DNA of 64,000 nucleotides. Origin: Melastoma dodecandrum (Eukaryota; Streptophyta; Magnoliopsida; Myrtales; Melastomataceae). Location: the NCBI GenBank assembly GCA_029817715.1, contig JARUPY010000371.1:310001-374000 (forward strand). Reading direction: 5' to 3'. A program made the translations under genes and the position numbers. Each line of letters opens with the position of its first letter. Positions within the stretch are counted from its first letter, which is position 1. Of the stretch, positions 13,859 through 60,422 are shown piece after piece. Below the pieces are notes generated by a model. The model was given only the letters and a program-made list of their open reading frames with translations. It did no database searches and was not told the origin of the DNA.

Positions 13859-14674
13859 CTAGGAGATGACGATCTTCTCGACGCCGGGGCATGCTTCGAG
13901 CTGCTCGATCGTAGCGTCTTTGAATTCATAGCGTGCGAGCGTCGGCGATGCTACGACCTTGTCGATCTTCCAGCACGCGACGGGTTTCACTGCCCCCTTG
14001 TGCGCGATCTTGCTGCCGCAGACGACAAGTTTGGACTTTAGCTCATCGGGCATGAACTTCAGGAGCTTCTTACCGACCGGTGCATAAACCATGATACGAT
14101 CGTCGTATCTAGCGCTTTCATATTGCTTCGGCGTCAACACCCTGCGAGCTAATGCTTCTAGTTGATGACAAAGATCGTAATCTGCAACGACGGCGGCGAG
14201 AAAAGGATAGTACTTATAGGAATGAGGGTTTAATAGCTCCAAGCCCTGTGATCTTTGATAGTTGGCTGACAGCGCGTGATGGACAGCTTCCCCAACATCA
14301 TCTTCGTCGGGTTGAACTTCTTGGAGGTCCGCTCCTGTTACAGCAAAAATATAACCAGTCGGGCCGTATGTATCGAGCGATTTCTGAGCCTGCTTCGGGT
14401 AGTATCCTGCGCGAAGTACGGCTCTGCATGCGTAGAACGCTGCTGTGCGGATGTCCGTTGTGAAGTACGACATGTCTGCGGCAGGCTTGAGACGCCCCTT
14501 TGGCCTGCCTGTCGCATCAGAGTCTGGCTGGTAGGCGATGCCACTTCGCATGATGGCCATTGCACCCGCCTTTGTCGGCGTGCCGTGGAAGAATACTGTC
14601 TGTGAAATCTCAGATGGCGCGGAGACGGTCTCGTCAACCTCCTCGGCCTCCACGATGTTGATCCAGTTTCTCAT
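13859..14674 (-). CDS. Tagged ADP-ribosyltransferase-like protein (type 1a)
   Basis: 271 aa. Residues 1-9 are the recurrent tag M-R-N-W-I-N-I-V-E, with an [I/L]-x-E cleavage-like end. The core then has F-F-H-G-T near 30, Y-F-T-T-D ... A-F-Y-A near 75 and an acidic E-V-Q-P-D-E-D, the spacing of H-Y-E type ADP-ribosyltransferases. It is a full-length paralog of the protein at 35548 (shared G-K-K-L ... M-P-D-E-L-K-S-K-L and A-C-W-K-I-D-K). The late box CTAAATA ends 4 nt before the ATG and no SD is visible. Likely a head-packaged effector; the enzymatic activity is inferred. Confidence 0.8.
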   Translation of the reverse strand: MRNWINIVEAEEVDETVSAPSEISQTVFFHGTPTKAGAMAIMRSGIAYQPDSDATGRPKGRLKPAADMSYFTTDIRTAAFYACRAVLRAGYYPKQAQKSLDTYGPTGYIFAVTGADLQEVQPDEDDVGEAVHHALSANYQRSQGLELLNPHSYKYYPFLAAVVADYDLCHQLEALARRVLTPKQYESARYDDRIMVYAPVGKKLLKFMPDELKSKLVVCGSKIAHKGAVKPVACWKIDKVVASPTLARYEFKDATIEQLEACPGVEKIVIS

Positions 14675-14678
14675 CGCG

Positions 14679-14685
14679 TATTTAG
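14679..14685 (-). promoter_or_regulatory. Late promoter box CTAAATA
   Basis: T4-type late -10 element 4 nt before the ATG at 14674; it implies a nearly leaderless mRNA. Confidence 0.6.
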
Positions 14686-14691
14686 ATGATT

Positions 14692-14766
14692 TGGCGCTCC
14701 CAAGGGGAATCGAACCCCTCTTCCCGGCTTGAAAGGCCAGTGTCCTAACCGATAGACGATAGGAGC
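14692..14766 (-). tRNA. tRNA-Glu (anticodon UUC)
   Basis: Acceptor GCTCCTA/TGGGAGC, typical Glu TCGTCTA D-arm start, anticodon loop CTTTCAA, T loop TTCGATT, encoded CCA. Decodes GAA/GAG. Last of three co-directional Glu tRNAs. Confidence 0.92.
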
Positions 14767-14774
14767 GTAGTAGA

Positions 14775-14851
14775 TGGCGCTTCCATGGGGACTTGAACCC
14801 CAGTTTTCCCGCGTGAGAGGCGGGCGTCCTAGACCGCTAGACGATGGAAGC
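14775..14851 (-). tRNA. tRNA-Glu (anticodon CUC), copy 1
   Basis: 77 nt, acceptor GCTTCCA/TGGAAGC perfect, anticodon loop CTCTCAC, T loop TTCAAGT, CCA encoded. Decodes GAG. Confidence 0.92.
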
Positions 14852-14863
14852 AGATAGTAGAGT

Positions 14864-14938
14864 TGGCACCCCCAGAGAGAATCGAACTCTCCTTTCAGGC
14901 TTGAGAAGCGTGCGTCCTGACCGATAGACGATGGGGGC
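14864..14938 (-). tRNA. tRNA-Glu (anticodon CUC), copy 2
   Basis: Acceptor GCCCCCA/TGGGGGT, anticodon loop TTCTCAA with one mismatch in its stem, T stem GAGAG/CTCTC type, CCA encoded. Decodes GAG. First of the three in transcription order; a terminator lies 12 nt upstream. Confidence 0.85.
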
Positions 14939-14950
14939 AGAGTAAGGGCA

Positions 14951-16420: not shown

Positions 16421-16421
16421 T

Positions 16422-24856: not shown

Positions 24857-25609
24857 TCAATGACGCTTGATGAGCTTGATGATCCTGGGATCGAAGACGA
24901 CATAATTGTGCGTACCCTTCTCCCCTTCACGGCTATTCCCGTCGAGGTACTTCACACCGAGGATGCCCGCAGCCAAAAGATCGTTGGATGATTGCTTGTT
25001 GGGATTAGGGCATTTGCGCCTGTTCGTATTGAAGTTGCGCATCATGACGTACAGCACGTCGCCGGTATCATTGTCTTTGATCGCGTCAGGGACATACGAA
25101 GTGTAGGTTGCGGTCAAAGATTTGAGAGCCTTTTTGACAAACGGCGACTGGTTCCTGAAAGGAACATCATTTAAAAGAAACTTGCTGTCGTCTGGCAGTT
25201 CGACCTCATAGAGATGGCCACCAGAGAAAACGACGTCATCTATGTCGATGCTGTCCACGAGCTTTGACCATGCAGGGTCTTCGATATGAACCTGCTCTTC
25301 GCCGCGCCACTCCCAATCGCCATATTGCTGTTTGGTTCTTGTCTTATCCCAGTCGAAGTCGAGAAGAAGAGAGATAGCTTTCTGCGTCTCCTTGTCGAGC
25401 TTCTCGAATGGCACGCCGTTGTATGAGATATCAGAAAGCTTTTTGCGATAGTACTCGGCAACTTTGCGTTCTTCAGCAAAGTAAAGGCCGTATCCATAGG
25501 CGTCATGCCCTTCACCGGTTCCTATCTTGGCGATCTTGAAGACCGTAAAGCGGTGACGGCTTCCATGCCATACCGTTGCTTCATTGACGATGTCGAGCCA
25601 TTTGCGCAT
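24857..25609 (-). CDS. Tagged ADP-ribosyltransferase-like protein (polyvalent/MuF-associated type)
   Basis: 250 aa. The tag M-R-K-W-L-D-I-V-N-E is followed at once by V-W-H-G-S, then G-T-G-E-G ... Y-G-Y-G-L-Y-F-A-E near 40, and near the end G-V-K-Y-L-D-G-x-S-R with N-Y-V-V-F-D. This whole order is typical of the ART-like domain found in MuF and large polyvalent phage proteins. Late box ATAAATA 4 nt upstream. Probably packaged and injected. Confidence 0.82.
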   Translation of the reverse strand: MRKWLDIVNEATVWHGSRHRFTVFKIAKIGTGEGHDAYGYGLYFAEERKVAEYYRKKLSDISYNGVPFEKLDKETQKAISLLLDFDWDKTRTKQQYGDWEWRGEEQVHIEDPAWSKLVDSIDIDDVVFSGGHLYEVELPDDSKFLLNDVPFRNQSPFVKKALKSLTATYTSYVPDAIKDNDTGDVLYVMMRNFNTNRRKCPNPNKQSSNDLLAAGILGVKYLDGNSREGEKGTHNYVVFDPRIIKLIKRH

Positions 25610-25612
25610 GCA

Positions 25613-26533
25613 TTATTTATGACCATCGGCCAGCGGGTGGAGGTCGGCCACCATCGACATCTTCCGTCGATCGAGAACGTGCAGGTAGCCTTCCGTGGTC
25701 CCGATGTCGGCATGCCCGAGCAGCTCTTGCAGCGAGCGTAGGTCCTGCCCGTTGGCCAGCAGATGCGATGCGAAGGCGTGGCGCAGCTTGTGGGCCGACA
25801 ATCCGATTCCCGCCAGTCGAGCCGCGCTCTTCATCTCCAGGTCGACGGCTTGACGTGTCAGCGGCCTCCCTGGATTGCGCATCGAATGGAAGACCCACTC
25901 GCGCGGGCCCGGATCGTAGGCTTGGGAGAGATCACGCCAAAGCTCGATCGACGCGAGGGCGCGATCGTGAAGCAGGACCATCCGCTCCTTCGAGCCCTTA
26001 CCCTTGATCATCACCGCCATCGAGCCGCGCAGGTCCTTGGGCTTCAGCCGGAGGGCTTCGCTGATACGCATCCCAGAGGCGTAGAGCGTCTCCAGGAGGG
26101 CGGCGCGCCTCGCCAGTATCGCACGACCCCGAAGCTCAAGATCGCCGTCCTGGGCCCGTTTGTGGGCATCGTCGAGCACCTGGGCGACGATCTCTTCGGA
26201 GAGGCTCTTCGGTACACGCTGCGTACGGCGCATTGGATCAAGGAGATCGCTGGGGTCACTCTCGGCGCGCCCCTCCAGGAGGAGGAAGCGGCACAAGCCA
26301 CCGATCACAGCACGGCGATGCAACACAGTGGCGTCAGACAAATGTCGAAGGCTGTCGAGATACGCGACGATATCGTGCCGCGTCAGAGAGGGCAGGGCGA
26401 TGCCGTTCTTGTCGAGGAAGGCGAGGAAGCAACGGAGGTCGTTGCGATAGGTCTGGGCGCTGTCAGCGACGATCGAGCCTTCGGCAAGCGAGGCCTCGAT
26501 CCAAAGGTCGGCGAGCTGAGCGTTGGTCGGCAT
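25613..26533 (-). CDS. Tyrosine recombinase, XerC/D type
   Basis: 306 aa, intact. N-terminal SAM-like core-binding domain (~1-95). The catalytic domain has Arg in G-M-R-I-S-E-A-L, Lys in K-G-K-G-S-K-E-R, H-K-L-R-H-A-F-A-S-H, G-H-A-D-I-G-T-T and the Tyr nucleophile in G-Y-L-H-V. It could resolve genome multimers or insert cargo cassettes at a recombination site. No att or dif-like repeat was found next to it. Confidence 0.92.
   Translation of the reverse strand: MPTNAQLADLWIEASLAEGSIVADSAQTYRNDLRCFLAFLDKNGIALPSLTRHDIVAYLDSLRHLSDATVLHRRAVIGGLCRFLLLEGRAESDPSDLLDPMRRTQRVPKSLSEEIVAQVLDDAHKRAQDGDLELRGRAILARRAALLETLYASGMRISEALRLKPKDLRGSMAVMIKGKGSKERMVLLHDRALASIELWRDLSQAYDPGPREWVFHSMRNPGRPLTRQAVDLEMKSAARLAGIGLSAHKLRHAFASHLLANGQDLRSLQELLGHADIGTTEGYLHVLDRRKMSMVADLHPLADGHK
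25614..25620 (-). promoter_or_regulatory. Late promoter box ATAAATA
   Basis: 4 nt before the ATG at 25609; it overlaps the stop region of the upstream recombinase gene. Confidence 0.6.
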
Positions 26534-26567: not shown

Positions 26568-27257
26568 TTAGAGGTACTTCAGGAGGAACAGCATAAGCGG
26601 AATCAGGCGCTCCATGTCGCTCTTCAGCTCGGAGGCGAGAACCAGATCGTCATCCTCTTGGTGCCAAGTCATCTCGTGCTGATCGGCGAGGCGTTCGATG
26701 GAATGCACCGCGATGATGTAGGTGCCGAGCTTCGACGGCACAAACTGCCGAAGTTGATGTCCGGTCTCATTTTGAAGCTGGAGGAAGCTCAGGTACGCGC
26801 TGTCCTCGACAAACCCATAATCCGAGACCGGGTCTTGATCCGGCACGTAACCATTGTTCTCGCGCCAATGCTTCTGATACTCCACCTCAAGCCGATGCGT
26901 TTCTGACGCATACTCGAAGCTTGTACCGTACGTCTTGATTTCCGCGAAGAAGGCATCCGCCAAATCAGCAAGTACATACTTGGTATCGAAGTCGCCGATA
27001 TCCTCGGGGAAGGCGCTGCTCGGATCGCTGAGCCTTGCACGCTCGGCATCGTGCTCGGCTCTCTTTTGCCTGAGCGTGTCGACGATTCTATCGATCCACT
27101 CGCCTGACGGCTTCAGATTGAAGTTGCGCATGCTCGCGGCCTTCGTCCAAACGTCGTTGATCTTCTTGATCAGCTCGTTCTTGTCGACGGGTTTTTGGTG
27201 GCGCGGCCTTGCGAGGACGGCCTTCATTGATGATATCGAGTGCGCTTCTGATTTCCA
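26568..27257 (-). CDS. Tagged hypothetical protein (frameshifted)
   Basis: ATG 27257 is preceded by TATAAATA and opens with the tag M-E-I-R-S-A-L-D-I-I-N-E. A one-base shift near 27190 moves reading into the main frame, which is helical and charged with V-D-T-L-R-Q-K-R-A-E-H. No known domain in the ~200 residues that follow. The tag and the promoter together identify the true start; a start further upstream in the main frame would be false. Confidence 0.65.
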   Translation of the reverse strand, partial: WKSEAHSISSMKAVLARPRHQKPVDKNELIKKINDVWTKAASMRNFNLKPSGEWIDRIVDTLRQKRAEHDAERARLSDPSSAFPEDIGDFDTKYVLADLADAFFAEIKTYGTSFEYASETHRLEVEYQKHWRENNGYVPDQDPVSDYGFVEDSAYLSFLQLQNETGHQLRQFVPSKLGTYIIAVHSIERLADQHEMTWHQEDDDLVLASELKSDMERLIPLMLFLLKYL

Positions 27258-27262
27258 TGAGG

Positions 27263-27270
27263 TATTTATA
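27263..27270 (-). promoter_or_regulatory. Late promoter box TATAAATA
   Basis: Full 8-of-8 T4 late consensus, 5 nt before the ATG at 27257. Confidence 0.65.
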
Positions 27271-31639: not shown

Positions 31640-32240
31640 CTACGAGAAGGGGTCGGTGATGACCGGCGTGTCGCCGCGTAGCATGATATTCTCGCTATGA
31701 ATGTCTAGGTTGACCTTCTTTTTCAACTCCGCAATGTCGTTGAGGATGTCCGTGTAGCCGGGGTATTTTCTATCGAACATGTCTCGGATCAGGTACCGAT
31801 GCTCATCGAAAGTCGAGTCGTCCAGGTATTCTAAGGTCTTATCGACAATCCAGAAATCCGACTGTGGAAGCGGCTCTAGGCGCTCCATGCGGACCATGTA
31901 GAAAAACCGACCCAGCTTGATGAACTTACCTCGGAACTTCGGCACGTAAGGACTGTCTTGATGACCAAGGCAGTAGCGGACCCAGGCAATATAGGACATG
32001 TCCCATTCGAAATATCTTGATAACATCGTTCGACGACGGCGCGGCAAACACAATGCCGAAGGTGCCTTGCTGGCCGAGACGCTGGAAGCCTCGCTTGCGC
32101 AACTTGCCGTAAACGTACGCGAGGAACTCATCGTTGTCGACCAGCTCATCGTCGGCCAAACCCTTGAGGTATTCCAAGTCCTTGTCGGCCTTGTAGCCTG
32201 TAAGCTCATTGATGATATTGATCGATTCGCGTATCTGCAT
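31640..32240 (-). CDS. Tagged protein-kinase-like protein 1 (frameshifted)
   Basis: Tag M-Q-I-R-E-S-I-N-I-I-N-E, then a helical N-part and a kinase-like core: glycine loop G-T-F-G-I-V-F, V-I-K-I-F with the usual Lys, catalytic-loop-like D-I-H-S-E-N and metal Asp in V-I-T-D-P-F at the C-terminus. One shift near 32005. First of three tandem paralogs (31640-33521), each with its own late box. Likely a head-delivered kinase acting on host proteins. Confidence 0.75.
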
Positions 32241-32244
32241 CCTT

Positions 32245-32251
32245 TATTTAC
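32245..32251 (-). promoter_or_regulatory. Late promoter box GTAAATA
   Basis: 4 nt before the ATG at 32240. Confidence 0.55.
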
Positions 32252-32299: not shown

Positions 32300-32891
32300 T
32301 CAAATGAAGGGATCGGTGATGACCGGCGTGTCGCCGCGCATCATGACGTTCGATTGATGTAGATCGATGAAGAACTTGCCGCGCTGGGATCGGATGTAGT
32401 CTAGGATATCGACGATACCCGGCAGATATTCGGCCGCCTCGCGACGATCGCGGACGAACCATTTTTCCAGGTCAGGGGGCACTAACATATCCTTCGATGA
32501 ACTTGAAGATGCGATTGTGGCGATACATGACTGGAGATAGCTCTTCCATGCGCACCGCGAAGAGATGATCCGTGAGCTGCACGAACTTGCCACGAAACTT
32601 GGGAACGTATGGGCTGTCCTGATGCGCAAGGCAGTAGCGCACCCAGGCGATATACGGCGCGTCGTTGAAGAACACCTTGATGACGTAGTCTCCGCCCGGC
32701 GCCTGGAAAACAACCCCCTTCGCGCCCGCCTCGCCCATCATCTCAAAGCCCTGGTCCTGAAGATAAGCTTCGATGCGATCGATGTAGTTGCCAGCATCAT
32801 CGTTTGCGATCTTCTTCAGCCGGGCCAACGTATCGTTGGATTTGAAGCCAGTTAGCTCGTTGATGATGTCGAGAGATTCACGGATGTCCAT
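32300..32891 (-). CDS. Tagged protein-kinase-like protein 2 (frameshifted)
   Basis: Tag M-D-I-R-E-S-L-D-I-I-N-E. Same order as its neighbours (V-I-K-V-F, Y-V-P-K-F-R-G-K-F, D-L-H-Q-S-N, V-I-T-D-P-F), but the loop reads G-A-K-G-V-V-F. A shift near 32487 breaks the middle. Confidence 0.75.
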
Positions 32892-32895
32892 ATCG

Positions 32896-32902
32896 TATTT
32901 AT
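32896..32902 (-). promoter_or_regulatory. Late promoter box ATAAATA
   Basis: 4 nt before the ATG at 32891. Confidence 0.6.
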
Positions 32903-32906: not shown

Positions 32907-33521
32907 TCAGACTGCAAATGGATCGGTGATGACGGGTGTGTTGCCACGCATCATGACGTTATTCGAATGGATGTCGTGATAGCCGCGCTCGCTGTTCATG
33001 ACGATGATCTCGTCGAGCACCTCGGACAAACCTGGATACTTTCGCTCGATAGCGCTCCCGAGCTGGTCTCTTTGCTCCTCAATGTCGTCGCAGTAGGTGA
33101 CGAAGTCATCATTGACATAATCCGTGATCATCTTGACGATGCTCTCGTCCTCCAGCGGCGATAGACGTTCCATCCGAACCATGTAGACGTACTTGGCGAG
33201 CTTCGCGAACTTGCCTCGGAACTTCGGTACGTACGGGCTGGTCTGATGTTGCAAGCAGTACTTCAGCCACTCGGCGTACCCACCATCGAAGCGGAAAACC
33301 TTGATGACATAGTCGAGGCCCGGCTTCGTGAATACGATTCCGTAAGTGCCCGCGCCGAGGGCCTCATAGCCGTTCTTCCGGAGGTGGCCGTAGACCAGCT
33401 TGATGAAGTCGTCGTTGTCGACCATCTCGTCCTCGCCGACACGCTTGACGTCGGCGAGATCAGCATCATTGTGATGGCCAGTGAGTTCATTGATGATGTT
33501 GAGAGCTTCGCGAATGTCCAT
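32907..33521 (-). CDS. Tagged protein-kinase-like protein 3 (intact)
   Basis: 204 aa, uninterrupted. Tag M-D-I-R-E-A-L-N-I-I-N-E, then G-T-Y-G-I-V-F, V-I-K-V-F, Y-V-P-K-F-R-G-K-F-A, D-I-H-S-N-N and V-I-T-D-P-F. It serves as the reference for the two broken neighbours. It is about 70 residues shorter than ordinary protein kinases, lacking a clear activation segment and C-lobe. It may be a minimal or pseudo-kinase. Confidence 0.8.
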   Translation of the reverse strand: MDIREALNIINELTGHHNDADLADVKRVGEDEMVDNDDFIKLVYGHLRKNGYEALGAGTYGIVFTKPGLDYVIKVFRFDGGYAEWLKYCLQHQTSPYVPKFRGKFAKLAKYVYMVRMERLSPLEDESIVKMITDYVNDDFVTYCDDIEEQRDQLGSAIERKYPGLSEVLDEIIVMNSERGYHDIHSNNVMMRGNTPVITDPFAV

Positions 33522-33525
33522 CGAA

Positions 33526-33532
33526 TATTTAG
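33526..33532 (-). promoter_or_regulatory. Late promoter box CTAAATA
   Basis: 4 nt before the ATG at 33521; a divergent box ATAAATA at 33546-33552 serves the next gene. Confidence 0.6.
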
Positions 33533-33545: not shown

Positions 33546-33552
33546 ATAAATA
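33546..33552 (+). promoter_or_regulatory. Late promoter box ATAAATA
   Basis: 5 nt before the ATG at 33558. Confidence 0.6.
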
Positions 33553-33557
33553 TCGAA

Positions 33558-34027: not shown

Positions 34028-34034
34028 CTAAATA
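34028..34034 (+). promoter_or_regulatory. Late promoter box CTAAATA
   Basis: 4 nt before the ATG at 34039. Confidence 0.6.
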
Positions 34035-34038
34035 TGAC

Positions 34039-39050: not shown

Positions 39051-39057
39051 TATTTAT
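39051..39057 (-). promoter_or_regulatory. Late promoter box ATAAATA
   Basis: 4 nt before the ATG at 39046. Confidence 0.6.
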
Positions 39058-39565: not shown

Positions 39566-39572
39566 ATAAATA
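39566..39572 (+). promoter_or_regulatory. Late promoter box ATAAATA
   Basis: 4 nt before the ATG at 39577. Confidence 0.6.
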
Positions 39573-39576
39573 TCGG

Positions 39577-42185: not shown

Positions 42186-42192
42186 CTAAATA
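42186..42192 (+). promoter_or_regulatory. Late promoter box CTAAATA
   Basis: 7 nt before the ATG at 42200. Confidence 0.6.
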
Positions 42193-42199
42193 ACCCGAA

Positions 42200-44071
42200 A
42201 TGCGAATTCGTGAAATCGAAACTCCCCTCCGTAGCGTTGTTGAAACAAACCGATTTCGAAGAGACTTCGATGCGGAGGCGGTCCGTGATCCCTCGCTGAT
42301 CACCGACTTACGTGACTTCTTAAAATTCAAGCAGGAGCATGGCTCTACCCCGTATGGGGCAAAGGATGCTCCGTTCCATTACGGCCCGCGCAAGGGCTAC
42401 TGGCACTGTCATCTTCGCCACGGCAGGCTGATCGTCACCTATAAGATCGACGCGCGCCACATCTACCTGACGGCCTTCACTGATCACAAAGCCTACGACG
42501 GCAAGGTGCCGAAGATCGGCGCCTTCCTGAGCGGACTCTCGCCCAGCGACTATTCGGCCTATGATGAGCCGGTGACCAACAAGCCCCCTGCCCCGGTCCA
42601 GGAGAATCCGCTGCTCGGCGAGCTGCGCGAGCTTGCCTACGGAATGGCCAGCGATCCGGCCGAGCGAGCTGATCTCATGAAGGTCGCGCGTGGCGATGTC
42701 TCGGGCTTCAAGGTGTACCTCGAAATGCTCGGCGTCACGGGCCAGGACGTCGCCCAGGCCTTCGGGTCTCGTGCCGCCATGATGGCCTTTGCGAAGAAGG
42801 TACTGGCCGACACAGCCGTCAAGGAAGCCGTTTCGGAGGCCGTGCAGCCCAAGACCTACCTGCATGTGTCACCCGGCGATCGCTTGCCGTCCCTGGCCGC
42901 CAAAGGCCTCGTGGCGAACTACAACGCCGAGTACGACGGCATGGGTAACTACGACGGCGACTGGCAGAGCCTGGAAGGCATCTACATGACCGATCAGACC
43001 GATCTGATCAGCCACATGATGACCGCTCGACCCGATCTGGAGGCGCCGGTCGCGATCGCGATCATCGAAGCTGACCCGTCGAAGCTGCTGCCCGACGAGG
43101 ACATCATCAACATCGTCATGGGAGACATCCACGACACGATCGAAGGCGGCGACGAGCCGGAAGACGACGCGGATCGCATCAGAATCGTCAAGACGCTGGC
43201 AAAGCGCTTCGCGGAACGTCTCGGCGAGAAGCCGAACAAGGTTCACCTGGAACTCGCCGATGGCTGGCTTGCACATTGGCTCGGCGAAAGCGACGCCAAT
43301 TACGAATGGTGGGCGAGCATCAAGGACAGGTTCGTCCGGTCCCACCCGACCCTGAGCAAGGACAAGAACGCGCCGCACTCTGTCCGCTATCCCGGCAGCA
43401 TCGGCTTCACCGGTTCGCCACGCATCGCGACGCTCGTCGAGTTGGACGACCGCTGGCAGGTGAAGGTGGTCAAGGGGAAGCTCACAGCGGCCGGGAAGGC
43501 CCTTCTCGACCGACTTGGTGCCATCACAGCCCCGGCGCAGCCGAAGGCCCTCGACGGCCAGCGCAAGGAACTTCTGGACCTCGCCTCGCGGGTCGTATCC
43601 TGGCGTCCTCAGTCCGAGCTGATTAAGATCATCTCGAAGATGAACGACGCCGAGGTCGCAGAGCAGATCAAGGTGGCGAAGGAGAAGCTCGCCAAGCCCA
43701 TCGCAGAGAGCGTGGCCCTGGCGCCAACGCTGTATCACGGCACCTGCGCATCGAACGCAGAAAGCCTATGCAAGAACGGTTGGGCGCCGCGTACAGGCGG
43801 CATGGGCGGTAACATGGGGCAGTCCCGCTACCTCTACCTCACGACCGGCCCTGAGGACGCTCTGTGGTTCGCGCAAGAGAAGGGTTGCAATACCGTACTG
43901 GAGATCGTCGGCGTGCCGATGGCGGCGCTGATCGTCGACCCTGAGGACGGCATGGCCGATAACGTCGCAGACGAGATCAAAAACGCCTTCGGCCTACCGG
44001 GCAAGGTGGCGCTCACCGTGCCGCTTGGGCCTGAGCACTTCCGGCCGTACAAAGGCACTTTCTCCCTATGA
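42200..44071 (+). CDS. Tagged polyvalent protein: RelE-like plus two ART-like domains
   Basis: 623 aa, intact. Tag M-R-I-R-E-I-E. Residues ~17-110 follow the RelE/YafQ ribonuclease-toxin order (basic helix, then H-L-R-H-G-R-L-I-V-T-Y-K-I, then L-T-A-F-T-D-H-K). A first ART-like part begins near 215 (Y-L-H-V-S-P ... G-I-Y-M-T-D-Q) and a second one near 515 (L-Y-H-G-T ... Y-L-Y-L-T-T ... A-L-W-F-A). Such multi-enzyme chains are typical of phage polyvalent proteins injected with DNA. All activities are inferred from motif order. Confidence 0.78.
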   Translation: MRIREIETPLRSVVETNRFRRDFDAEAVRDPSLITDLRDFLKFKQEHGSTPYGAKDAPFHYGPRKGYWHCHLRHGRLIVTYKIDARHIYLTAFTDHKAYDGKVPKIGAFLSGLSPSDYSAYDEPVTNKPPAPVQENPLLGELRELAYGMASDPAERADLMKVARGDVSGFKVYLEMLGVTGQDVAQAFGSRAAMMAFAKKVLADTAVKEAVSEAVQPKTYLHVSPGDRLPSLAAKGLVANYNAEYDGMGNYDGDWQSLEGIYMTDQTDLISHMMTARPDLEAPVAIAIIEADPSKLLPDEDIINIVMGDIHDTIEGGDEPEDDADRIRIVKTLAKRFAERLGEKPNKVHLELADGWLAHWLGESDANYEWWASIKDRFVRSHPTLSKDKNAPHSVRYPGSIGFTGSPRIATLVELDDRWQVKVVKGKLTAAGKALLDRLGAITAPAQPKALDGQRKELLDLASRVVSWRPQSELIKIISKMNDAEVAEQIKVAKEKLAKPIAESVALAPTLYHGTCASNAESLCKNGWAPRTGGMGGNMGQSRYLYLTTGPEDALWFAQEKGCNTVLEIVGVPMAALIVDPEDGMADNVADEIKNAFGLPGKVALTVPLGPEHFRPYKGTFSL

Positions 44072-44072: not shown

Positions 44073-44936
44073 CTAAAGCGCGAAGACCTTACCGCGTGCC
44101 GTGGCGAAAACGCCCTTGGCACGATGATTGACGATCACCTCCAAGTGCTCGATGTCATCATTGGCAACCTCGACGTAGTCGGTCGGATCGCTACCCGCTT
44201 GTAGCCGCTATCGGACACGCGATTGAAGGTGATCTCGCCGCGCACGAGATACTGGGTCAGCATCTCGACGAAGAACTCTCCTGGCCGCTTTCGTAGAGAG
44301 CCCTCGCGCGCGCTGCGCATAGTGCCGATGATCTCGCCCACTAGACCGAGGTGCTGCTTCCAATTCGCGGCAGAGAAAAGGTTGGAGTATTTGGGAAGAT
44401 GCAGGAGGCTTCGAGCGATGTCTTCGCTATCTCGCCCCACACGATCAAAGATCGCGTCGGCTTGCGGATTGCCTGATTGAATGATCGAGTGGCAGATGCG
44501 GTGGGCGAGAATCCAGGAGGTCAACGGCATGCGCTCATCGCCCTCGTTATCTAGCAGCAGGACCGATATGGTGTTGCCGTCGTTGACAAGGGGCTGACCT
44601 AGCAGTGTTTCTGCCTCGGCATAGCTGATCTCGCCATTGAAACCGCCCTTCTCAAGATGTTCGAGTTCCCTTGCGTTGAACTCTCCTTTGCCCGGCACAC
44701 TGAATTTACCATCCTTGCCATTGTAGAGGTAGACGTTGAAGATAAACGGCGTGCGAGAGAAGGCGTTACGGACCTTCAACTGCCAAGCCGGGTTCTTGAT
44801 CGCGCGTAGATCGCTGGCGCGGAAACGAGCCTTCATCCTCAGTGTCGCCATGGAGTTCGAGATCGCCGATCGGCGCCTCATCAAGCTCTTCAGATTCTGC
44901 AAGGGCTTGGTTGATGATGTTGAGGAATTCGCGCAT
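44073..44936 (-). CDS. Tagged hypothetical protein (two frameshifts)
   Basis: Tag M-R-E-F-L-N-I-I-N-Q-A-L-A-E. Shifts near 44850 and 44195; stop TAG at 44073, 1 nt after the convergent stop. The main frame has L-A-H-R-I-C-H-S-I, which resembles a degenerate H-E-x-x-H site, and a long helical region. Function unknown. Confidence 0.6.
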
Positions 44937-44940
44937 CCAA

Positions 44941-44947
44941 TATTTAT
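44941..44947 (-). promoter_or_regulatory. Late promoter box ATAAATA
   Basis: 4 nt before the ATG at 44936. Confidence 0.6.
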
Positions 44948-45586: not shown

Positions 45587-45593
45587 ATAAATA
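45587..45593 (+). promoter_or_regulatory. Late promoter box ATAAATA
   Basis: 18 nt before the ATG at 45612 with GAGGAG in between: the one tagged gene with an ordinary SD. Confidence 0.55.
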
Positions 45594-45611
45594 TTTGCCG
45601 AGGAGACTCTA

Positions 45612-46506
45612 ATGACATCTATTCGGCAATGGATTAACGTTCTAACGGAAGCAGCCGCGATCGACTACATGTATGGCGGCTGCCACGTATTCGCACTTGC
45701 TGTTGAAGAGCTTACCGACTGGAATATGGTCGCTCTGTTGTCGTACGGCGGCGAGCGAGTCTGACGATGACGATTTCGAAGACAACGATGACCTCGACGA
45801 GAGTGATGAACCGGAGGATGACACATTCCATGGCTTCAGTGATGTAATCCACATCTTTTGTGTTACGCCCGAGGGGCGCCGTTTCGATGCGTACGGTCTT
45901 AGTGGCCCTGTTGATCAGTATGTCTATGAGCGCGAAGTTGAACTAGGCGAGGACCTGTCGACGATGCCTGTAGACAAAGACGATATCGCACAGCTCGTCG
46001 CTATGGGTTGGCTCAGCCCTATCACGCCTGCTGAAGCAGCCGAGGCAAGAGCAGATGCTCGCCAAGCGCTTGAGGATGAAGAAATACAGTTCGATGCCTC
46101 TAATAGTGAGCTGACAGAGACGGCTAAACCATTTCATGTCGACGGCTACGAACCACATTCCTCATTGTATGAGATACATGGGCGAGGCGATATGAGGTAT
46201 CTTCTTCATGGCTCACAGTTCAATCTACTTCGAGCATTGTTGCTTGACGGAGGTCGGGTGCTTGCATGGGACGCCTACTATTCCACCCATGAAGAGATGT
46301 TGAATCGTATTGAGAAAGCCGGTGCCGACATACCGAACGCCAACTTTATCTATTTGACACCGGAAGGCGTTGCTGCTGGCCCTCGTGCAGAAATACAAAC
46401 GAGCGCCCCACTGCGCAGAGCTTACGGAACACCTGTGCCTACCGTTCCTCTTCCAGAGCTTCCATCCGACGATGAGGAAGAAGACAGCGATTCATACGAC
46501 GAATAG
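45612..46506 (+). CDS. Tagged protein with Cys-His start (frameshifted)
   Basis: Tag M-T-S-I-R-Q-W-I-N-V-L-T-E. Next comes M-Y-G-G-C-H-V-F-A-L-A, a Cys-centred helix like the start of papain-fold domains, then a shift near 45760, an acidic run (D-D-D-F-E-D-N-D-D) and a long mixed domain ending in another acidic tail. A later domain with Y-L-T-P-E-G resembles an ART strand only weakly. Confidence 0.65.
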
Positions 46507-49104: not shown

Positions 49105-49518
49105 TCTAATCTCCACGGGCCAATTCGATAAGCGCCTTCGATCACGCTGCGCGCGGCCTCAAGATCAGACCGCATCCCTTCGATTGCCCCGCACACCCTG
49201 GCTATTCTCAGGAGCTGCTGGCGGTTGACGATCTCCGTGTCTCCAGGAACGCTAATGATGCCCTGATAGTCGATCGCAATATGCTGGCAGATGGCAAATG
49301 CATGGTTCTGCCTCGCACTCCAACCCAACTCGGCTTCGATGCCGTGCTTGACCAGCACGCCGACGAGCATGATCGCCATCGCGAAGCATCCGCCTTCTTC
49401 GAAATAGAATCCAACTCGGTGATTGTCGGCCGACTGGCTTAGGCAGTGCACAAAACTCCGGCAAGGGCCCGCTGCTTTCGACAAGCCGAACGAGAGTGTG
49501 AAACGATGGCGCTTCCAT
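49105..49518 (-). CDS. Tagged papain-like-fold candidate (frameshifted)
   Basis: ATG 49518 follows GTAAATA. Tag M-E-A-P-S-F-H-T-L-V-R-L-V-E. Shifts near 49448 and near 49130; stop TAG at 49105. The core E-G-G-C-F-A-M-A, then H-A-F-A and I-D-Y-Q-G, again gives a Cys-His-Asp order. Related in plan to the tagged proteins at 38548 and 45612. Confidence 0.6.
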
Positions 49519-49522
49519 CGAC

Positions 49523-49529
49523 TATTTAC
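49523..49529 (-). promoter_or_regulatory. Late promoter box GTAAATA
   Basis: 4 nt before the ATG at 49518. Confidence 0.55.
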
Positions 49530-53457: not shown

Positions 53458-54102
53458 TTGCATATCGTACCATCAGGCATGCTCTCCTCTACCGACATCG
53501 ACATCGATCTAGCCGACAGAGAGACGGCTCGAAACAGCCTCACCTGCATCCCAGCCGTTCGGATGAACGACGAGACGAAGCAGCACGAACGGCATCAGTC
53601 AGGGGTCTACTTCCAGAACATCCCGATCGACCCGCGCACCGACACGGCGTCGATCGACTTCAAGACGGCCGCCAAGCTCGGCTACTTCAAGGTCGATTTC
53701 CTCTCGATCACCATCTTCGAGAGCGTCGAGAGCAACGATCATCTCGACGAGCTGGTCGCGCGCGAGCCCGACTGGAAGATGCTGGAGCATCGCGAGATCG
53801 TCGACATGCTCTACCACATCAACGGCAAGTTCGGGATCGTCCAGAGCATACGGCCGCAGTGCGTCGCGGACCTCGCCGTCGTCCTGGCTCTGATCCGCCC
53901 CGCCAAGAAGCATCTCATCGGCCAGCCGCGCGAGATCATCGACGAGCAGATTTGGATTCTGGACGACAAAGACGAGTACGCCTTCAAGCGTGCGCACGCA
54001 TACGCCTACGCGCTAACGATCGTCGCGCAGATGAATCTTATATGCGAGCAGATGGCGAAGCAGATCGAGGCCGGGGAAGGCCAGGATGAGGTTTGGGATT
54101 AG
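53458..54102 (+). CDS. DnaE (Pol III alpha)-like protein fragment
   Basis: 214 aa, intact. D-I-D-I-D-L-A-D-R-E near the start, then H-Q-S-G-V-Y-F, T-A-S-I-D-F-K-T-A-A-K-L-G-Y-F-K-V-D-F-L, a G-K-F-G-I-V-Q-S segment and A-L-I-R-P-A-K. The order follows the palm/fingers part of bacterial Pol III alpha. It is far too short to be a polymerase. Such short DnaE-like proteins occur in T4-type phages; their role is unknown. It ends convergent with the next gene. Confidence 0.65.
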   Translation: MHIVPSGMLSSTDIDIDLADRETARNSLTCIPAVRMNDETKQHERHQSGVYFQNIPIDPRTDTASIDFKTAAKLGYFKVDFLSITIFESVESNDHLDELVAREPDWKMLEHREIVDMLYHINGKFGIVQSIRPQCVADLAVVLALIRPAKKHLIGQPREIIDEQIWILDDKDEYAFKRAHAYAYALTIVAQMNLICEQMAKQIEAGEGQDEVWD

Positions 54103-54476
54103 ACCTCGGGGTTGCGCACGAGCGTGACCTGACGCTTGCGGACGCGGCGTGCAATGGCCTCCTGCAACGAGACGCTCGGTCCGGCATGCAGGACGAAGTC
54201 CTTCGCGGAGAAGTGCTTGAGGCACGGACGGAACACGCGGAAGCGCGTACCGAGGAAGATGTTGATCGGGAGCTGGCGGTTCGACTCCCACCACCACGTG
54301 ACGCCACAGTCGAGGAACTCGGCGCGGAGCTTTTCGTCCGGGATCATGTCGAGCACGTACATCGAGACAAGCTGGCTGTCGCTGTTCTGGATGATGCCCA
54401 GGTACGACGTCTCCTGCATTGTCCCGTAGCTCAGGAACTCGAACTTCTCTAGAATCTCTCTTATTGAATCGTCCAT
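54099..54476 (-). CDS. T4-type conserved protein, possibly tagged
   Basis: 125 aa from ATG 54476 (GTG 54488 possible). M-D-D-S-I-R-E-I-L-E resembles the tag, but the late box CTAAATA (54501-54507) is 24 nt upstream. The body has Y-L-G-I-I-Q-N, W-W-W-E-S-N-R and G-P-S-V-S-L, a pattern conserved in T4-type phages; a baseplate or neck role is possible. Confidence 0.65.
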   Translation of the reverse strand: MDDSIREILEKFEFLSYGTMQETSYLGIIQNSDSQLVSMYVLDMIPDEKLRAEFLDCGVTWWWESNRQLPINIFLGTRFRVFRPCLKHFSAKDFVLHAGPSVSLQEAIARRVRKRQVTLVRNPEV

Positions 54477-54500
54477 GCCAATAAACACTGTGGTTTATTG

Positions 54501-54507
54501 TATTTAG
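54501..54507 (-). promoter_or_regulatory. Late promoter box CTAAATA
   Basis: 24 nt before the ATG at 54476. Confidence 0.5.
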
Positions 54508-54546: not shown

Positions 54547-54972
54547 TCAGCCGAGTTCCTCGATATCGACGTAATAAACAGGCTTTTTTGCTAGAATGGC
54601 CGCGACGAGGTGGTGATTGCCGTCGAGCACTCGGTTATCCGACAGTACGATGATCCGCTCATCGTCGAACATCTTCATCTTGTGCTGCACGAGCTTCTTC
54701 TGGTCTTTCGATGCCTTCTTGTAGGCCTGGAGTATCGGCATATCATGTCCCGCTACAACCTTGACTGCCTCCTCTGGAGACATAACGTGCACGGTAAGTG
54801 GCGTGTCTAAATCGTCCCAATGAATATGCTGAGTAAGAAGCTCCCCCTCGTCCATCAGGCTGCTATCGTCAGCGTATATCTGATTGAGCGTCAGCTTTTC
54901 GCCCGGCTGATAGCTCTCGGCGACTGATGACTCGATCTCAGTGAGGAGGTCAAGTGTTTCACGAATGTCCAT
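54547..54972 (-). CDS. Tagged ParB/sulfiredoxin-like protein
   Basis: 141 aa, intact. Tag M-D-I-R-E-T-L-D-L-L-T-E, helical middle, then I-I-V-L-S-D-N-R-V-L-D-G-N-H-H-L-V-A-A, the ParB/Srx strand-helix with His-His instead of His-Arg. Second ParB-like tagged protein after 33558. Confidence 0.78.
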   Translation of the reverse strand: MDIRETLDLLTEIESSVAESYQPGEKLTLNQIYADDSSLMDEGELLTQHIHWDDLDTPLTVHVMSPEEAVKVVAGHDMPILQAYKKASKDQKKLVQHKMKMFDDERIIVLSDNRVLDGNHHLVAAILAKKPVYYVDIEELG

Positions 54973-54977
54973 AGCAC

Positions 54978-54984
54978 TATTTAC
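54978..54984 (-). promoter_or_regulatory. Late promoter box GTAAATA
   Basis: 5 nt before the ATG at 54972; head-to-head with the box at 54987-54993. Confidence 0.6.
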
Positions 54985-54986: not shown

Positions 54987-54993
54987 CTAAATA
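54987..54993 (+). promoter_or_regulatory. Late promoter box CTAAATA
   Basis: 5 nt before the ATG at 54999; serves an untagged structural gene, showing that the box is a general late signal. Confidence 0.6.
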
Positions 54994-54998
54994 TAGTC

Positions 54999-55769
54999 AT
55001 GTCAGCCGTGCAAATCTTCAGCCTTCCCCAAGTCGTGATGCTATGCACGGGCATTGGAGCCACGACCTTGAACTTCCCGCTCAACCGGACCGACTTCAAA
55101 ATCTTTCAGGGCATCGACAATCCGATTCAGGTGCTCATCCGCGACGTCGACCGTGCGCCGGTCACCTTCGCGACGGGCGTCACGCCGATGGTCAACATCT
55201 TCCAGAAGGAGACGAGCAAGCTCATCTTCACGAGCCCGCTGACCCTTGTCGACCAGACGCAGTCGCTATGGACCTTCACAGCCCCGGCCGCCGCGATCGC
55301 AGACTGGAGCGTCGGCTGGTGCACCTACACGATCACCACCGTCGACAGCTCAGGCACCCGCTTGGCGCTCTACATGAATCGCGGCTACGGGCTCGAAGGG
55401 CAGGTCGAGATCGTCGCCGGGCCCTACATCCCGGCTGTCTCTGCTACCGTCCTCCAGGCCTCAGATTTCATCACTGCGGACGGGAATCTGGTCGGCGGCT
55501 ACCTCCCTGGGGCTGCGCAGGTCGGCAACCTCTCTGGCCTGCATATGGCGGCGATCTACGGCACCGGCTTCACCGGCACCGTTCAAGCGCAGGTCATGCT
55601 CGACCCGATGATCTCCTACAACAGCGACCAGTGGATCACGGTCGCCACGGCAACCCTCACGAACCTCACTGGCATCCAGACGATGACCTTCGAGGGGAAC
55701 TACTACTGGATTCGGTTTGTCGTGAACCAGACCAGCGGCTCGTTCGATCAGCTCCTGTCGAGGAGCTGA
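54999..55769 (+). CDS. Probable virion structural protein
   Basis: 256 aa, intact, beta-rich, with Thr/Ile/Val strands and no cysteine cluster; similar in style to tail-tip or baseplate proteins. No tag. 55770-55946 behind it holds only operator copy 10 and no gene. Confidence 0.65.
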   Translation: MSAVQIFSLPQVVMLCTGIGATTLNFPLNRTDFKIFQGIDNPIQVLIRDVDRAPVTFATGVTPMVNIFQKETSKLIFTSPLTLVDQTQSLWTFTAPAAAIADWSVGWCTYTITTVDSSGTRLALYMNRGYGLEGQVEIVAGPYIPAVSATVLQASDFITADGNLVGGYLPGAAQVGNLSGLHMAAIYGTGFTGTVQAQVMLDPMISYNSDQWITVATATLTNLTGIQTMTFEGNYYWIRFVVNQTSGSFDQLLSRS

Positions 55770-57560: not shown

Positions 57561-57566
57561 GCCCAC

Positions 57567-57596
57567 AGGGACGCCTTTATTGAAGTAGGCGTCCCT
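57567..57596. terminator. Inverted repeat, possible terminator
   Basis: AGGGACGCCT/AGGCGTCCCT, a perfect 10-bp stem with a 10-nt loop, right after the kinase stop. No T-run follows, so termination is uncertain. Confidence 0.45.
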
Positions 57597-57633
57597 CATA
57601 GTCTAGTATCGGTAATCAGCTAAACCGATACAG

Positions 57634-58651
57634 ATGAACGCTTTTCTCGAAAAAATTGCCACGACAGACTTTCTTTGGAATGTGATCTCCGATCGTATTT
57701 CGGGTCGCGGGTCTATGTCGCGCACGGGCTACATCAACATTCGATGCCCGATGTGCCTCGACTATAAGCCGCGCTGCGGCATTAAGAACGACGGCAGCAA
57801 GATCGAGGTGAATTGCTACAACTGCGAACGGGCACGTGCTCGTTGGCAGGTCGGCGAGCTGTTGAGCGAGCGCATGCGCGGGTTCTTGTCCGCGCTGGGC
57901 CTCAGCGACAACGAAATCCATAAGCTGAACTACGAGGCCTTCCAGAAGCGAAGCTTCATCCGTTCGAGCCCCGATGCGATGCTTTACATCAAGGACTTCG
58001 CGACGCCGCAGTTCGAGTCGCACTCGCTCCCACCGCACGCAAAAAGCATGAAGCTCCTAGATGATCAGGGCTTCGACGACCCGGACTTTCCTGGCCGCCA
58101 AAGCCTACGTTCATGCGCGTGGCGCCGAACTCTACGATCAGTTTGACTTCCACTGGTCCCCGACGACGCACCACGACATGAATCGCCGGATCATCATCCC
58201 CTTCGTGCACGAGAAGAAGACGGTCGGCTACTCGGCTCGCGCGATCGATCCCGGTAACAAGCAGCGCTATCAGATGATCGCTCCGCCGAACTTCCTCTTC
58301 AAATGCGGCAGCGATGACCAAGCCGCGACGCAAGTTCGTGATCCTGACGGAAGGCGTGCTCGACGCGGTCCTCACTCGATTAGCGTCGGCCTCTGCGGCG
58401 CGCATCTCAATCCAGAGCAGATCGCCTGGATCAAGAGCTGCGGCAAGCAGGTCATCATGCTCGTCGACAGGGACCGCATGGGCCAGACGCTCGTAGACAC
58501 GGCGCTTGCTCACAACTGGCATGTCTCGTTTGCGGTCGGTGGAATTTCTAACTGGTGGGAGCCTGACGTCAAGGACGCCGCCGAAGCGTGCAGGCGTTAT
58601 GGCTCCCTCTGGACACTACAATCCGTCTTGGCGACGGCAACAAAACAATAA
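57634..58651 (+). CDS. DNA primase, gp61/DnaG type (three shifts)
   Basis: N-terminal zinc ribbon R-C-P-M-C ... C-Y-N-C (~residues 31-66), then a helical region, a frame shift near 58080, and the Toprim part: F-V-I-L-T-E-G-V-L-D-A-V lies in a third frame between shifts near 58312 and 58378, then V-I-M-L-V-D-R-D-R-M-G-Q. All Toprim acidic residues are present. Followed by the helicase, as expected for a gp61-gp41 primosome. An essential gene with several indels points to sequence error. Confidence 0.82.
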
Positions 58652-58690
58652 GATGCAGATCAACTTGCAAAGGAAAAAACTTCTATTACT

Positions 58691-60121
58691 ATGAATACCG
58701 AAATCGAATTCAACTACGACGTTCAATCCTATCTCATTTCCTACATGCTCTCAGAGGCCGATTGCTATCTGAAGTGCCAGAACATTCTGAAGGACAAATA
58801 CTTTGACGATCGGCTGAGGCCAGCCGTCCGCTTCATCCAGGATTATTCCAACGAGTACAAGTCGCTTCCTGACTTCAACATCGTCAAGGCTTCGACGGGG
58901 CACGTCTTCGAGCGACAGCAGACCTCCGACCAGACGACCAAGTTCTTTCTCGACGGTATCGAAAAGTTCGCTCGCCAGCGCGCGATGGAGATCGTCGTCT
59001 TCGAGGGCGCCGACCTCGTCATGAAGGGCCAGGGCGGTGAGCTGGAGCGTCGCTTCAAGGAGGCGATGTCCATCTCGCTGATGCACGACCTCGGCACGAA
59101 CTACTTCGCCAATCCAATCCAGCGCATCGAGAACATGAGGGACAATTCCTCCCTCTATTCGACGGGTTGGCCGTCGCTCGACGAGAAGCTGTTCGGCGGC
59201 TTCGTGAAGGGAGGCCTTAACATCTTCGCGGGCGGCTCTGGCGCGGGCAAGTCGCTGTGGCTTCAGAACCTCGCCGTCAACTGGGCGCTCGCGGGCGAGC
59301 ATGTCGTCTACATCTCGCTGGAGCTTTCCGAGGACCTCGTCGCGAACCGTCTCGATGCGATGTTCGCGAACGTCAGCACTAAGGAAGTCCTCCGCAATCC
59401 GAGCGACGTCGGCCTCCGGATCGCGATGATCGGCAAGAAGACGCCGGGCACGATCCAGATCAAGCGTCTTCCCGAGTCGACGACCACCGCGAATGACATT
59501 CGCGCCTACCTCAAAGAGTACGAGATCAAGACGGGTCGCAAGCCAACCCGTTTGCTGATCGACTATCTCGACATCATGGCGCCGGGCGCCAAGGTCGATC
59601 TCGGCAACCTCTCCGTCAAGGACAAGTATGTCTCGGAAGAGGTGCGTGCGCTCATGGACGAGTGGGGTCTGGTTGGCGCGACCGCCTCGCAGCTCAATCG
59701 TAGCTCGGTCGAGGCAGAGCTTTTCGACCACAGCCACATCGCTGGCGGCCTGTCGAAAATCCAGACGTCGGACTGTTCATTCGCCATCCTGGCGCCGCCA
59801 TCATTCAAGGAAAAGGGCAAGATGGAGCTACAGCTTATCAAGACCCGCTCCTCATCCGGTGTCGGCCACAAGATCACGTTTCCACTACGACATCGTCTCA
59901 ATGCGTATCACATCGATCACCGAGGAGGAGATCGAGCAGAAGCCGCAGACGAACTGCCGAAATCCGCCAGAGCGTTGCGAAGGAAGTCACTCGCGAGCCC
60001 GTCGTGTTGAGGAAGACAGAGAGCGACAGCGCGGAAGAGCCCACTGTTTAAGAAGCACGGGTTCGACATTCACGCGCTGATGAACAAGACGCGATCGGGT
60101 AAACGACATCTAACACGCTAA
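58691..60121 (+). CDS. Replicative helicase, gp41/DnaB type (frameshifted C-terminus)
   Basis: RecA-fold hexameric helicase. N-domain ~1-150, then G-G-S-G-A-G-K-S (Walker A, near residue 182), V-V-Y-I-S-L-E-L-S, L-L-I-D-Y-L-D (Walker B, near 293), S-Q-L-N-R and K-T-R-S-S motifs. The frame is clean to ~59880, then shifts near 59883 and 59953, so the true end is uncertain (TAA 60051 or 60121). Forms the primosome with the upstream primase. Confidence 0.88.
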
Positions 60122-60124
60122 ATA
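60118..60124 (+). promoter_or_regulatory. Late promoter box CTAAATA
   Basis: 4 nt before the ATG at 60129. Confidence 0.55.
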
Positions 60125-60128
60125 CGCC

Positions 60129-60422
60129 ATGCTTGTGGATGACGGTTTGACGCAAATGCGCGAATTTCTGACGTTGACGGAGGGGTTCAACATCTCTCTG
60201 TACAACGACGGCGCAACTGAGATGCCTACAGCGGAGAAGGTCGAGGAGGATGTTGCTTCCCCGATCATCGCCGACCTGGACGGTCTCGTCTTGAAGCTTC
60301 GTTCCTTCATGGAGACGTCCAGCGGCGATCGCGCGCTGGGGATCGAGGAAGGAATGCAGCGCGCCGCCGACATGATCGAGAACCTCATCAAGAGACATAC
60401 AGAGGGTACTTTAATTGGATAA
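60129..60422 (+). CDS. Possibly tagged small protein
   Basis: 97 aa from ATG 60129, or 88 aa from ATG 60156, which opens with the exact tag form M-R-E-F-L-T-L-T-E. The rest is helical (M-Q-R-A-A-D-M-I-E-N-L-I). Its stop overlaps the next start. It may be a T4-type head or core protein rather than an effector. Confidence 0.7.
   Translation: MLVDDGLTQMREFLTLTEGFNISLYNDGATEMPTAEKVEEDVASPIIADLDGLVLKLRSFMETSSGDRALGIEEGMQRAADMIENLIKRHTEGTLIG

Follow-up and report, generated by a model that had tools for sequence, protein, structure and literature searches.

In bacteriophage T4, a capsid-targeting sequence (CTS) directs internal proteins (IPs) to the head and the protease gp21 cleaves after L/I-X-E; through the CTS, in the view of the authors cited, T4-like phages may bring varied proteins into the head (excerpts of PMC9026906). 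Here we analyse a stretch of 64,000 nucleotides (nt), hereafter the window (G000:C31:310001-374000), of contig C31 from the Melastoma dodecandrum assembly GCA_029817715.1, in which otherwise unrelated proteins begin with a shared N-terminal tag ending in [ILV]-x-E. By analogy with T4, the tags are probably capsid-targeting leaders of the T4 type, cut by gp21, on late-made, head-packaged and probably injected proteins, and C31 would be a giant T4-like phage with such a packaging leader on dozens of cargo proteins; to this reading, jointly with the explanation set out below, we give a probability of about 0.76. New here are the scale, the coupling to late promoters placed at the start codon, and candidate gp21 sites within a single multidomain protein. 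We found no description of a capsid-targeting-leader arsenal, or of leaderless late cargo genes in giant phages, in keyword searches of papers in PubMed Central (PMC) under Creative Commons licences, and the main text of a 2026 review of jumbo-phage biology (PMC13282480) contains neither 'capsid targeting' nor 'prohead protease'.

T4 IPI, IPII, IPIII and Alt resemble the C31 proteins in joining a short leader ending in [L/I]-x-E to unrelated bodies, an ADP-ribosyltransferase (ART) among them (Alt), and T4, like C31, has the gp21 protease and gp23 in its genome. T4 has about four leader-bearing genes against dozens in C31, and the three T4 ip genes compared have no TAAATA within 60 nt upstream, whereas in C31 this element stands 4-7 nt before the ATG. 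Iyer and others reportedly described in 2017 polyvalent proteins that combine ART, toxin and further domains and would be injected together with the phage DNA; one C31 protein, 42200, may likewise have several such segments, and another, 24857, matches the ART-PolyVal model just under its cut-off. Unlike polyvalent proteins, the C31 cargo is mostly smaller, each protein with its own leader, and 42200 may be cut between its domains. Head-packaged ARTs are also thought to be injected with phage DNA (excerpts of PMC9503650). In the giant phages phiKZ and SPN3US, which belong to another phage family, head proteins are cut after Glu by a prohead protease and proteins are ejected with the genome; according to excerpts of PMC10052503, the N-terminal propeptides measure 111-254 residues except for two short ones of 20 and 24, unlike the shared leader of about 10 residues in C31.

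Tagged genes and putative late promoters at the start codon

An earlier note on this DNA had listed 21 places, one marked 'perhaps', for a set of about 20 tagged proteins; all 21 map to open reading frames (ORFs), with minus-strand genes named there, as here, by their low coordinate and carrying the tag at the opposite end. The set is picked out without looking at the protein by TAAATA, the core of the T4 late promoter and a feature absent from that note, which lies 4-7 nt before the ATG at 19 of the 21 places (18 directly, and 60129 via an upstream ATG, its tag beginning at the second ATG, 60156) and at 18 nt (45612) and 24 nt (54099) at the other two. The window (58% GC) holds 26 TAAATA against 4.5 +/- 2.3 in shuffles, and 22 TAAATA-N4-7-ATG sites against 0.27 expected, a number reached in 0 of 100 shuffles; 20 of these 22 sites open an ORF of at least 40 amino acids (aa).

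Tags were scored in a strict form, ^M[RDEQ].{3,12}[ILV].E, with V allowed beside L and I, and in a looser one. Among promoter-linked ORFs of the window, 16/20 carry the strict tag and 18/20 the loose one, against 29/924 and 117/924 of control ATG ORFs (Fisher 1.7e-19 and 3.3e-14), so that the shared N-terminus on otherwise unrelated proteins is real. The set is also larger than had been claimed: across the 264 kb of C31 that were read (the window, 1-100000 and 374001-474000), with 103 TAAATA sites, 26 of 46 promoter-linked ORFs are strict-tagged and 32 loose-tagged. Other N-termini do not share the motif equally, since only 82 of 3,558 other ATG ORFs there match strictly and 409 loosely (Fisher 3.7e-29 and 1.1e-19). 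The distance from TAAATA to ATG peaks at 4 nt (27 cases) and 5 nt (15), other distances up to 30 nt having at most 4 each. Over the whole 373 Mb of the assembly, a stricter pattern gave 12 matches (reversed control, 4), 10 in C31, including two at 493 and 500 kb outside the 264 kb, and 2 in a second contig, C570. The codons behind the tags vary synonymously (Arg2 as CGC, CGA, CGT or AGA; Glu as GAA or GAG), which indicates that the protein is conserved and that the likeness needs more than copying at the DNA level to explain it.

The member genes are listed below, together with one untagged contrast case (TAAATA stands for the element 4-7 nt before the ATG unless a distance is given; a slash marks the expected cut).

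13859..14684, minus strand: ART-like body, 271 aa; TAAATA at 14679-14684, tag MRNWINIVE/A; 37% identical to 35548
24857..25619, minus strand: ART body, 250 aa; TAAATA, tag MRKWLDIVNE/A; ART-PolyVal E 1.8e-6, 29.2 bits, cut-off 31.2
26568..27268, minus strand: tagged 56-aa ORF (27088-27258), the distal ORF lying in a different frame; TAAATA, tag MEIRSALDIINE/G
31640..32250, minus strand: 32907 paralogue by its N-terminal part, frame looks broken; TAAATA, tag MQIRESINIINE/L
32300..32901, minus strand: 32907 paralogue by its N-terminal part, frame looks broken; TAAATA, tag MDIRESLDIINE/L
32907..33531, minus strand: T7 gp0.7-like protein kinase, 204 aa; TAAATA, tag MDIREALNIINE/L; phrog_15752
33547..33977, plus strand: gene 33558, 139 aa; TAAATA, weak tag MRIHEVEG, with only IHE at residues 3-5
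34029..34359, plus strand: gene 34039, 106 aa; TAAATA, tag MRYREIME/T
35538..36285, plus strand: gene 35548, ART-like body, 245 aa; TAAATA, tag MRYEEIIAE/K
36518..37434, minus strand: gene 36518, 301 aa; TAAATA, tag MRYIEIIADTLTE/T
37521..38111, plus strand: gene 37533, 192 aa, HGS motif; TAAATA, tag MRNWINLVEE/A
38504..39056, minus strand: gene 38548, frame looks broken; TAAATA, tag MRELIDIVE/A
39567..40194, plus strand: gene 39577, phrog_1349 body, 205 aa; TAAATA, tag MREFMKIISE/A; tagged homologue in Agrobacterium phage Atu_ph07
41571..41821, plus strand: gene 41582, 79 aa; TAAATA, tag MNDIRSIINILVE/T
42187..44071, plus strand: gene 42200, 623 aa, YafQ-like domain and two ART-like segments; TAAATA, tag MRIREIETPLRSVVE/T
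44073..44946, minus strand: gene 44073, tagged ORF of 56 aa, body ORF 44135-44836 in another frame; TAAATA, tag MREFLNIINQALAE/S
45588..46506, plus strand: gene 45612, tagged ORF of 50 aa followed by ORF 45673-46506, frame looks broken; TAAATA at 18 nt, tag MTSIRQWINVLTE/A
49105..49528, minus strand: gene 49105, ORF 49252-49518, frame looks broken; TAAATA, tag MEAPSFHTLVRLVE/S
54099..54506, minus strand: 54099, doubtful member; TAAATA at 24 nt; phrog_11637 match from residue 9
54547..54983, minus strand: gene 54547, 141 aa; TAAATA, tag MDIRETLDLLTE/I
54988..55769, plus strand: 54999, untagged contrast case, virion structural family phrog_14467; TAAATA promoter back to back with that of 54547-54972
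60119..60422, plus strand: gene 60129; TAAATA and ATG 60129, tag MREFLTLTE/G from the second ATG, 60156

The ORF of 54099, the 'perhaps' case, exists, and we dropped it as a clear tagged member because its phrog_11637 match starts at residue 9, which is profile position 6 of 119 and leaves little room for an added leader. In seven of the 21 genes the frame looks broken (27258, 32240, 32891, 39046, 44936, 45612 and 49518), each time with a short tagged ORF and, behind it, a second ORF in a different frame. Since gp21 and gp22 of C31 look frame-broken too, the breaks probably stem from indels in sequencing or assembly, and we rejected programmed frameshifts or decay as the source; these genes were analysed as they stand.

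The T4 late element begins at -13 and has no conserved -35 site (excerpts of PMC2988020). Counted from there, the octamer TATAAATA ends at -6 and an ATG 4-5 nt past TAAATA falls at about -1 to +1, so that, by this analogy, the mRNAs of the tagged genes are probably leaderless or nearly so and made late, with the head. The TAAATA of gp21, the gp22-like gene and gp23 lie 42, 86 and 68 nt upstream of the ATG, with Shine-Dalgarno-like sequences. In two pairs of divergent genes the elements stand 15 bp (33526-33552) and 4 bp (54978-54993) apart; the latter gap is too narrow for -35 elements, in keeping with single-element promoters.

The coupling of promoter and tag is not exclusive, as 54999 has the promoter without the tag. 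At 80 loci with gp41-like helicases from environmental T4-like phages (1.03 Mb; L001-L080), TAAATA precedes the ATG by 4-7 nt in 127 ORFs, counting those of at least 40 aa; the start-codon promoter is thus common on ordinary genes and does not form one unit with the tag, and we rejected it as a cargo mark by itself, 117 of the 127 lacking a strict tag. C31 stands out by the number of its start-codon-promoter genes that carry a tag. As a separate observation, these mostly untagged ORFs suggest that leaderless late mRNAs may be common in environmental T4-like phages. At 30 loci found by a tag pattern, some near-identical, 11 of 28 additional promoter-linked ORFs carry the strict tag and 17 of 28 the loose one, the 30 selecting matches being left out of the count. 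At loci L082-L110, the families MRNLINIINEATIANYP (L086:3897; phrog_3560) and MRNLINIFEDPALKKQ (L085:5134) recur behind TAAATA in several viral contigs.

Tag form, protease and related phages

C31 has its head genes clustered at 11.1-14.5 kb (C31:11152-14500), comprising the prohead protease gp21 (a PF03420 match), a gp22-like scaffold (PF25623, E 1e-4, under the curated cut-off) and gp23 (PF07068, E 7e-92). The N-terminal part of gp23 reads KFLNE/QASFGATN, the same kind of site as in the tags, and in four relatives the same place before GAT[NS] reads LNE/A, LLE/S, LME/S and LME/A; in all five we take the cut to lie where it would by analogy with the T4 gp23 site. T4 IPII and IPIII begin MKTYQEFIAE/A and the IPI leader has ITE/A, with cuts at what we assume to be their positions, and the window tags MREFMKIISE/A and MRKWLDIVNE/A share this form. 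The proposal of a T4-like capsid-targeting leader is therefore well supported by the IPI-III form, the presence of gp21, the agreeing gp23 site and the tagged homologous cargo in other T4-like phages.

C31 gp23 is 70% identical to that of Sinorhizobium phage Phosso and 63% to those of GAP32/CBB. Four IMG/VR contigs of 500-607 kb are related to it (gp23 66-79% identical; gp21 in 4/4) and contain 26, 33, 21 and 15 TAAATA-N4-6-ATGCG sites, against 2 in a 354-kb contig and 1 in Atu_ph07 (reversed control 0 or 1 each). No tag-linked TAAATA site at 4-7 nt turned up in the stretches analysed of Phosso (50 kb), CBB (96 kb) and Atu_ph07 (77 kb).

In Atu_ph07 (Polybotosvirus), 11 consecutive genes, gp53-gp63 (numbers by count), begin M[RK]...L.E, with starts such as MRWEQLTE and MKWHQLTE that resemble those of C31. 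The run falls within coding sequences (CDS) 31-76, a region that accounts for 29 proteins detected in virions; for the whole phage 131 virion proteins are given (excerpts of PMC6102473). Outside it, gp672 (AUZ95426; counted from gp671) is a tagged homologue of 39577 (27% identity over residues 14-192; start MRLIDLLEHTLTE), preceded by TAAATA and then a 21-nt leader with AGGAG; unlike the C31 genes, the run forms one tandem cluster, and the single TAAATA-N4-6-ATGCG of Atu_ph07 is a genome-wide count. The start pattern M-x-W (MxW..L.E) occurs 13 times in Atu_ph07 and twice in giant contig G003, with 0 in reversed controls.

For Pectobacterium phage CBB, 55 virion proteins are listed from mass spectrometry (MS) (excerpts of PMC5259590, Table 4), and we compared the N-termini of 20 of them. 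LxE-like motifs near the start occur in CBB_254, CBB_256 and CBB_298, and seven of the 20 begin MLPFxR or MLPFSI, four of the seven with [LMI]-x-E at residues 7-9. Judging by these starts, Rak2-like phages do not generally use the MR-type leader class, and we rejected CBB as proof of packaged tags, one MR-type tag being present in the 20. Seven MS-listed proteins, CBB_536, 537, 548, 549 and 551-553 (L135:14368-24701), share the N-terminus MLPF.....Y[GA]N, perhaps a second virion address label.

Cargo bodies and the weighing of explanations

The bodies had been described as ART-, kinase-, GNAT-, ParB-, RelE- and papain-like. The kinase is well supported (32907; phrog_15752, PHROG E 6.7e-19, T7 0.7-like); the ART body of 24857 is moderately supported, its match lying just under the Pfam cut-off, and the RelE/YafQ body of 42200 weakly so (PF15738, E 1.3e-3, under the cut-off). 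GNAT appears only in a relative, L098, as a GNAT-like domain followed by a kinase behind MREYINIVE/S, and the ParB-like and papain-like bodies found no confirmation in profile and sequence searches. Such searches also gave no assignment for the bodies of 33558, 34039, 36518, 37533 and 54547. Five cargo families carry a differing tag in a relative: ART, the 42200 C-terminal segment, the kinase, the 44135 body and 39577. Homologous ART-like bodies stand behind MRYEEIIAE (35548), MRNWINIVE (13859) and MRYHEIIE (L081); the 32907 kinase has homologues in 19 phage records, that of Rhizobium phage RHph_I1_18 beginning LKSFSEHIAE/S (TTG start); and the 44135 body, which in C31 lies in a different frame from its tag, matches a tagged L103 gene, MRYHELVE. 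A search with the 13859 protein gave no match at E 0.001, 36518 had no relative in the viral contigs searched, and sequence searches of the PDB with A1, 54547, 32907, 42200 and 33558 gave no match. PDB matches of 45673-46503 to two designed proteins (E 0.02 and 0.04) were discarded as weak, and a toxin catalytic Pfam model matched by the ART-like protein from L141 (E 0.2) was set aside as not significant.

Protein 42200 runs from its tag (VVE/T) through a YafQ-like domain (PF15738) and an ART-like segment recognized by eye, which has no Pfam match, to a C-terminal ART-like segment. A [VI]-x-E motif precedes each ART-like segment, VSE/AVQPKTYLHVS (213) and IAE/SVALAPTLYHGT (503), and the C-terminal segment is 63-64% identical to free proteins of 122-123 aa in L141-L146, which in L141/L142 start behind TAAATA-N4-ATG as MRINEILTE/SSDVVTLYHGT and in L143/L144 as MKISDLFHE/DNSTITLYHGT. 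Between the Glu and LYHGT there are 7 residues in 42200 against 6 in the tagged L141 and L143 proteins, which weighs against reading 42200 as a polyprotein, and [ILV].E motifs are common in it (14, against 8.2 in shuffles), so that gp21 cleavage between its domains stays a proposal. A bolder and rather doubtful extension is that the 500-607-kb T4-like clade runs a plug-in delivery regulon, in which dozens of small cassettes would each join a minimal late promoter at the start codon, giving a leaderless mRNA, to an effector body and an exchangeable leader, the latter two swapped independently of each other, and in which at least one multi-effector polyprotein, 42200, would be cut by gp21 between domains in the prohead as a virus-head counterpart of polyprotein toxins; the frequency of start-codon promoters on untagged genes weighs against it.

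Several findings also count against the leader reading itself. The [ILV].E motif is short, its loose form being found in the 409 control ORFs given above, and C31 sites retain only the last six bases of the late element, the full octamer TATAAATA standing at 4 of 26. Of the 127 environmental start-codon-promoter ORFs, only 10 are strict-tagged and 22 loose-tagged. The 29 virion proteins from the 46 Atu_ph07 CDS need not include the tagged ones, the MxW..L.E start occurs in 0 of five other records searched, CBB and Phosso among them, and TAAATA-N4-6-ATGCG counts are 0 in CBB and 1 in Phosso despite the 70% gp23 identity of the latter. Among the 20 CBB virion proteins, an MR-type tag is found only in CBB_299 (MRFSQITE); the L145/L146 homologues of the 42200 C-terminal segment have no evident tag, and four of five kinase homologue starts (121Q, DLP_6, Milchi and Vibrio 1.170.O) lack one.

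The alternative that survives best, which we nevertheless consider unlikely, keeps packaging and trimming and has the tagged proteins act mostly in the head, on the core, DNA condensation or head size, rather than as injected effectors. The T4 core proteins gp22 and gp67 are gp21 substrates as well (excerpts of PMC9026906) and most bodies have no enzymatic assignment; those that can be assigned comprise ART-like bodies, a T7 0.7-like kinase, a weakly supported YafQ-like domain and, from a relative, a GNAT-kinase, kinds familiar in host take-over and not in scaffolding. That the shared N-terminus serves translation, leaderless mRNAs needing certain first codons with the amino-acid pattern as a by-product, would accord with the coupling of tag and promoter in C31; it is made very improbable by the recurrence of tag residues 7-15 with synonymous codons free, by similar tags behind normal leaders (Atu_ph07 gp672 and the gp53-gp63 run, T4 IPs), and by the start-codon promoters of other T4-like phages, 117 of the 127 standing on ORFs without a strict tag. 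Equally remote is a tag that sends proteins elsewhere (membrane, host machinery or a phage compartment) with LxE incidental, given the match to T4 IP leaders and to the gp23 site of the same genome, and no signal-peptide or membrane-helix character by eye, no predictor having been run.

Under the T4-type leader reading, the observed TAAATA spacing would set the RNA start at or within about 1-2 bases of the AUG, yielding a leaderless late mRNA; the leader, 8-15 residues in most, would draw the protein into the prohead scaffold core, as in T4; and gp21 would cleave behind [L/I/V]-x-E, the kind of cut also expected in gp23, and release the body into the interior of the mature head. ART-like, T7 0.7-like kinase, YafQ-like RNase and other bodies would then reach the next cell along with the DNA, where they may act on host functions or defences ahead of phage gene expression. 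If so, the leader is a readable address label for proteins probably delivered at the first moment of infection by giant phages rich in unknown genes, and provides host-takeover and anti-defence candidates that can be put to the test, as well as a natural leader set for loading proteins into phage heads; many T4-type late promoters would apparently work without an untranslated leader.

Contig and neighbouring genes

The assembly comprises 607 contigs and 373 Mb; C31 spans 583,598 bases of it and probably comes from a phage whose DNA was co-assembled with something larger. Both C31 and C570, the contig with the other two tag-pattern matches, are probably co-assembled phages of bacteria in the sample. 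Neither megablast with window 1-25000 nor tblastn with 42200 found a match among named phages. Two helicases in the window are taken for UvsW and gp41, the names being given by analogy.

An integrase/recombinase family gene (25613-26533; phrog_1, E 1e-44) adjoins a tagged ART gene. Elsewhere in the window there are three tRNA-Thr genes (GGT, TGT and CGT; 1961-2208) and a gene that reads, by eye from its N-terminus, as threonyl-tRNA synthetase (29618-31570), together with a hybrid PAS histidine kinase with a receiver domain (2249-4795; PF02518, PF00072), an NMT1-type periplasmic binding protein, here on a phage contig (18895-19854; PF16868, E 4e-7), an MGS-domain protein perhaps of purine metabolism (21642-23081; PF02142, E 5e-13) and a predicted protein with collagen-like GPTGPTG repeats close to its N-terminus (62897-63733).

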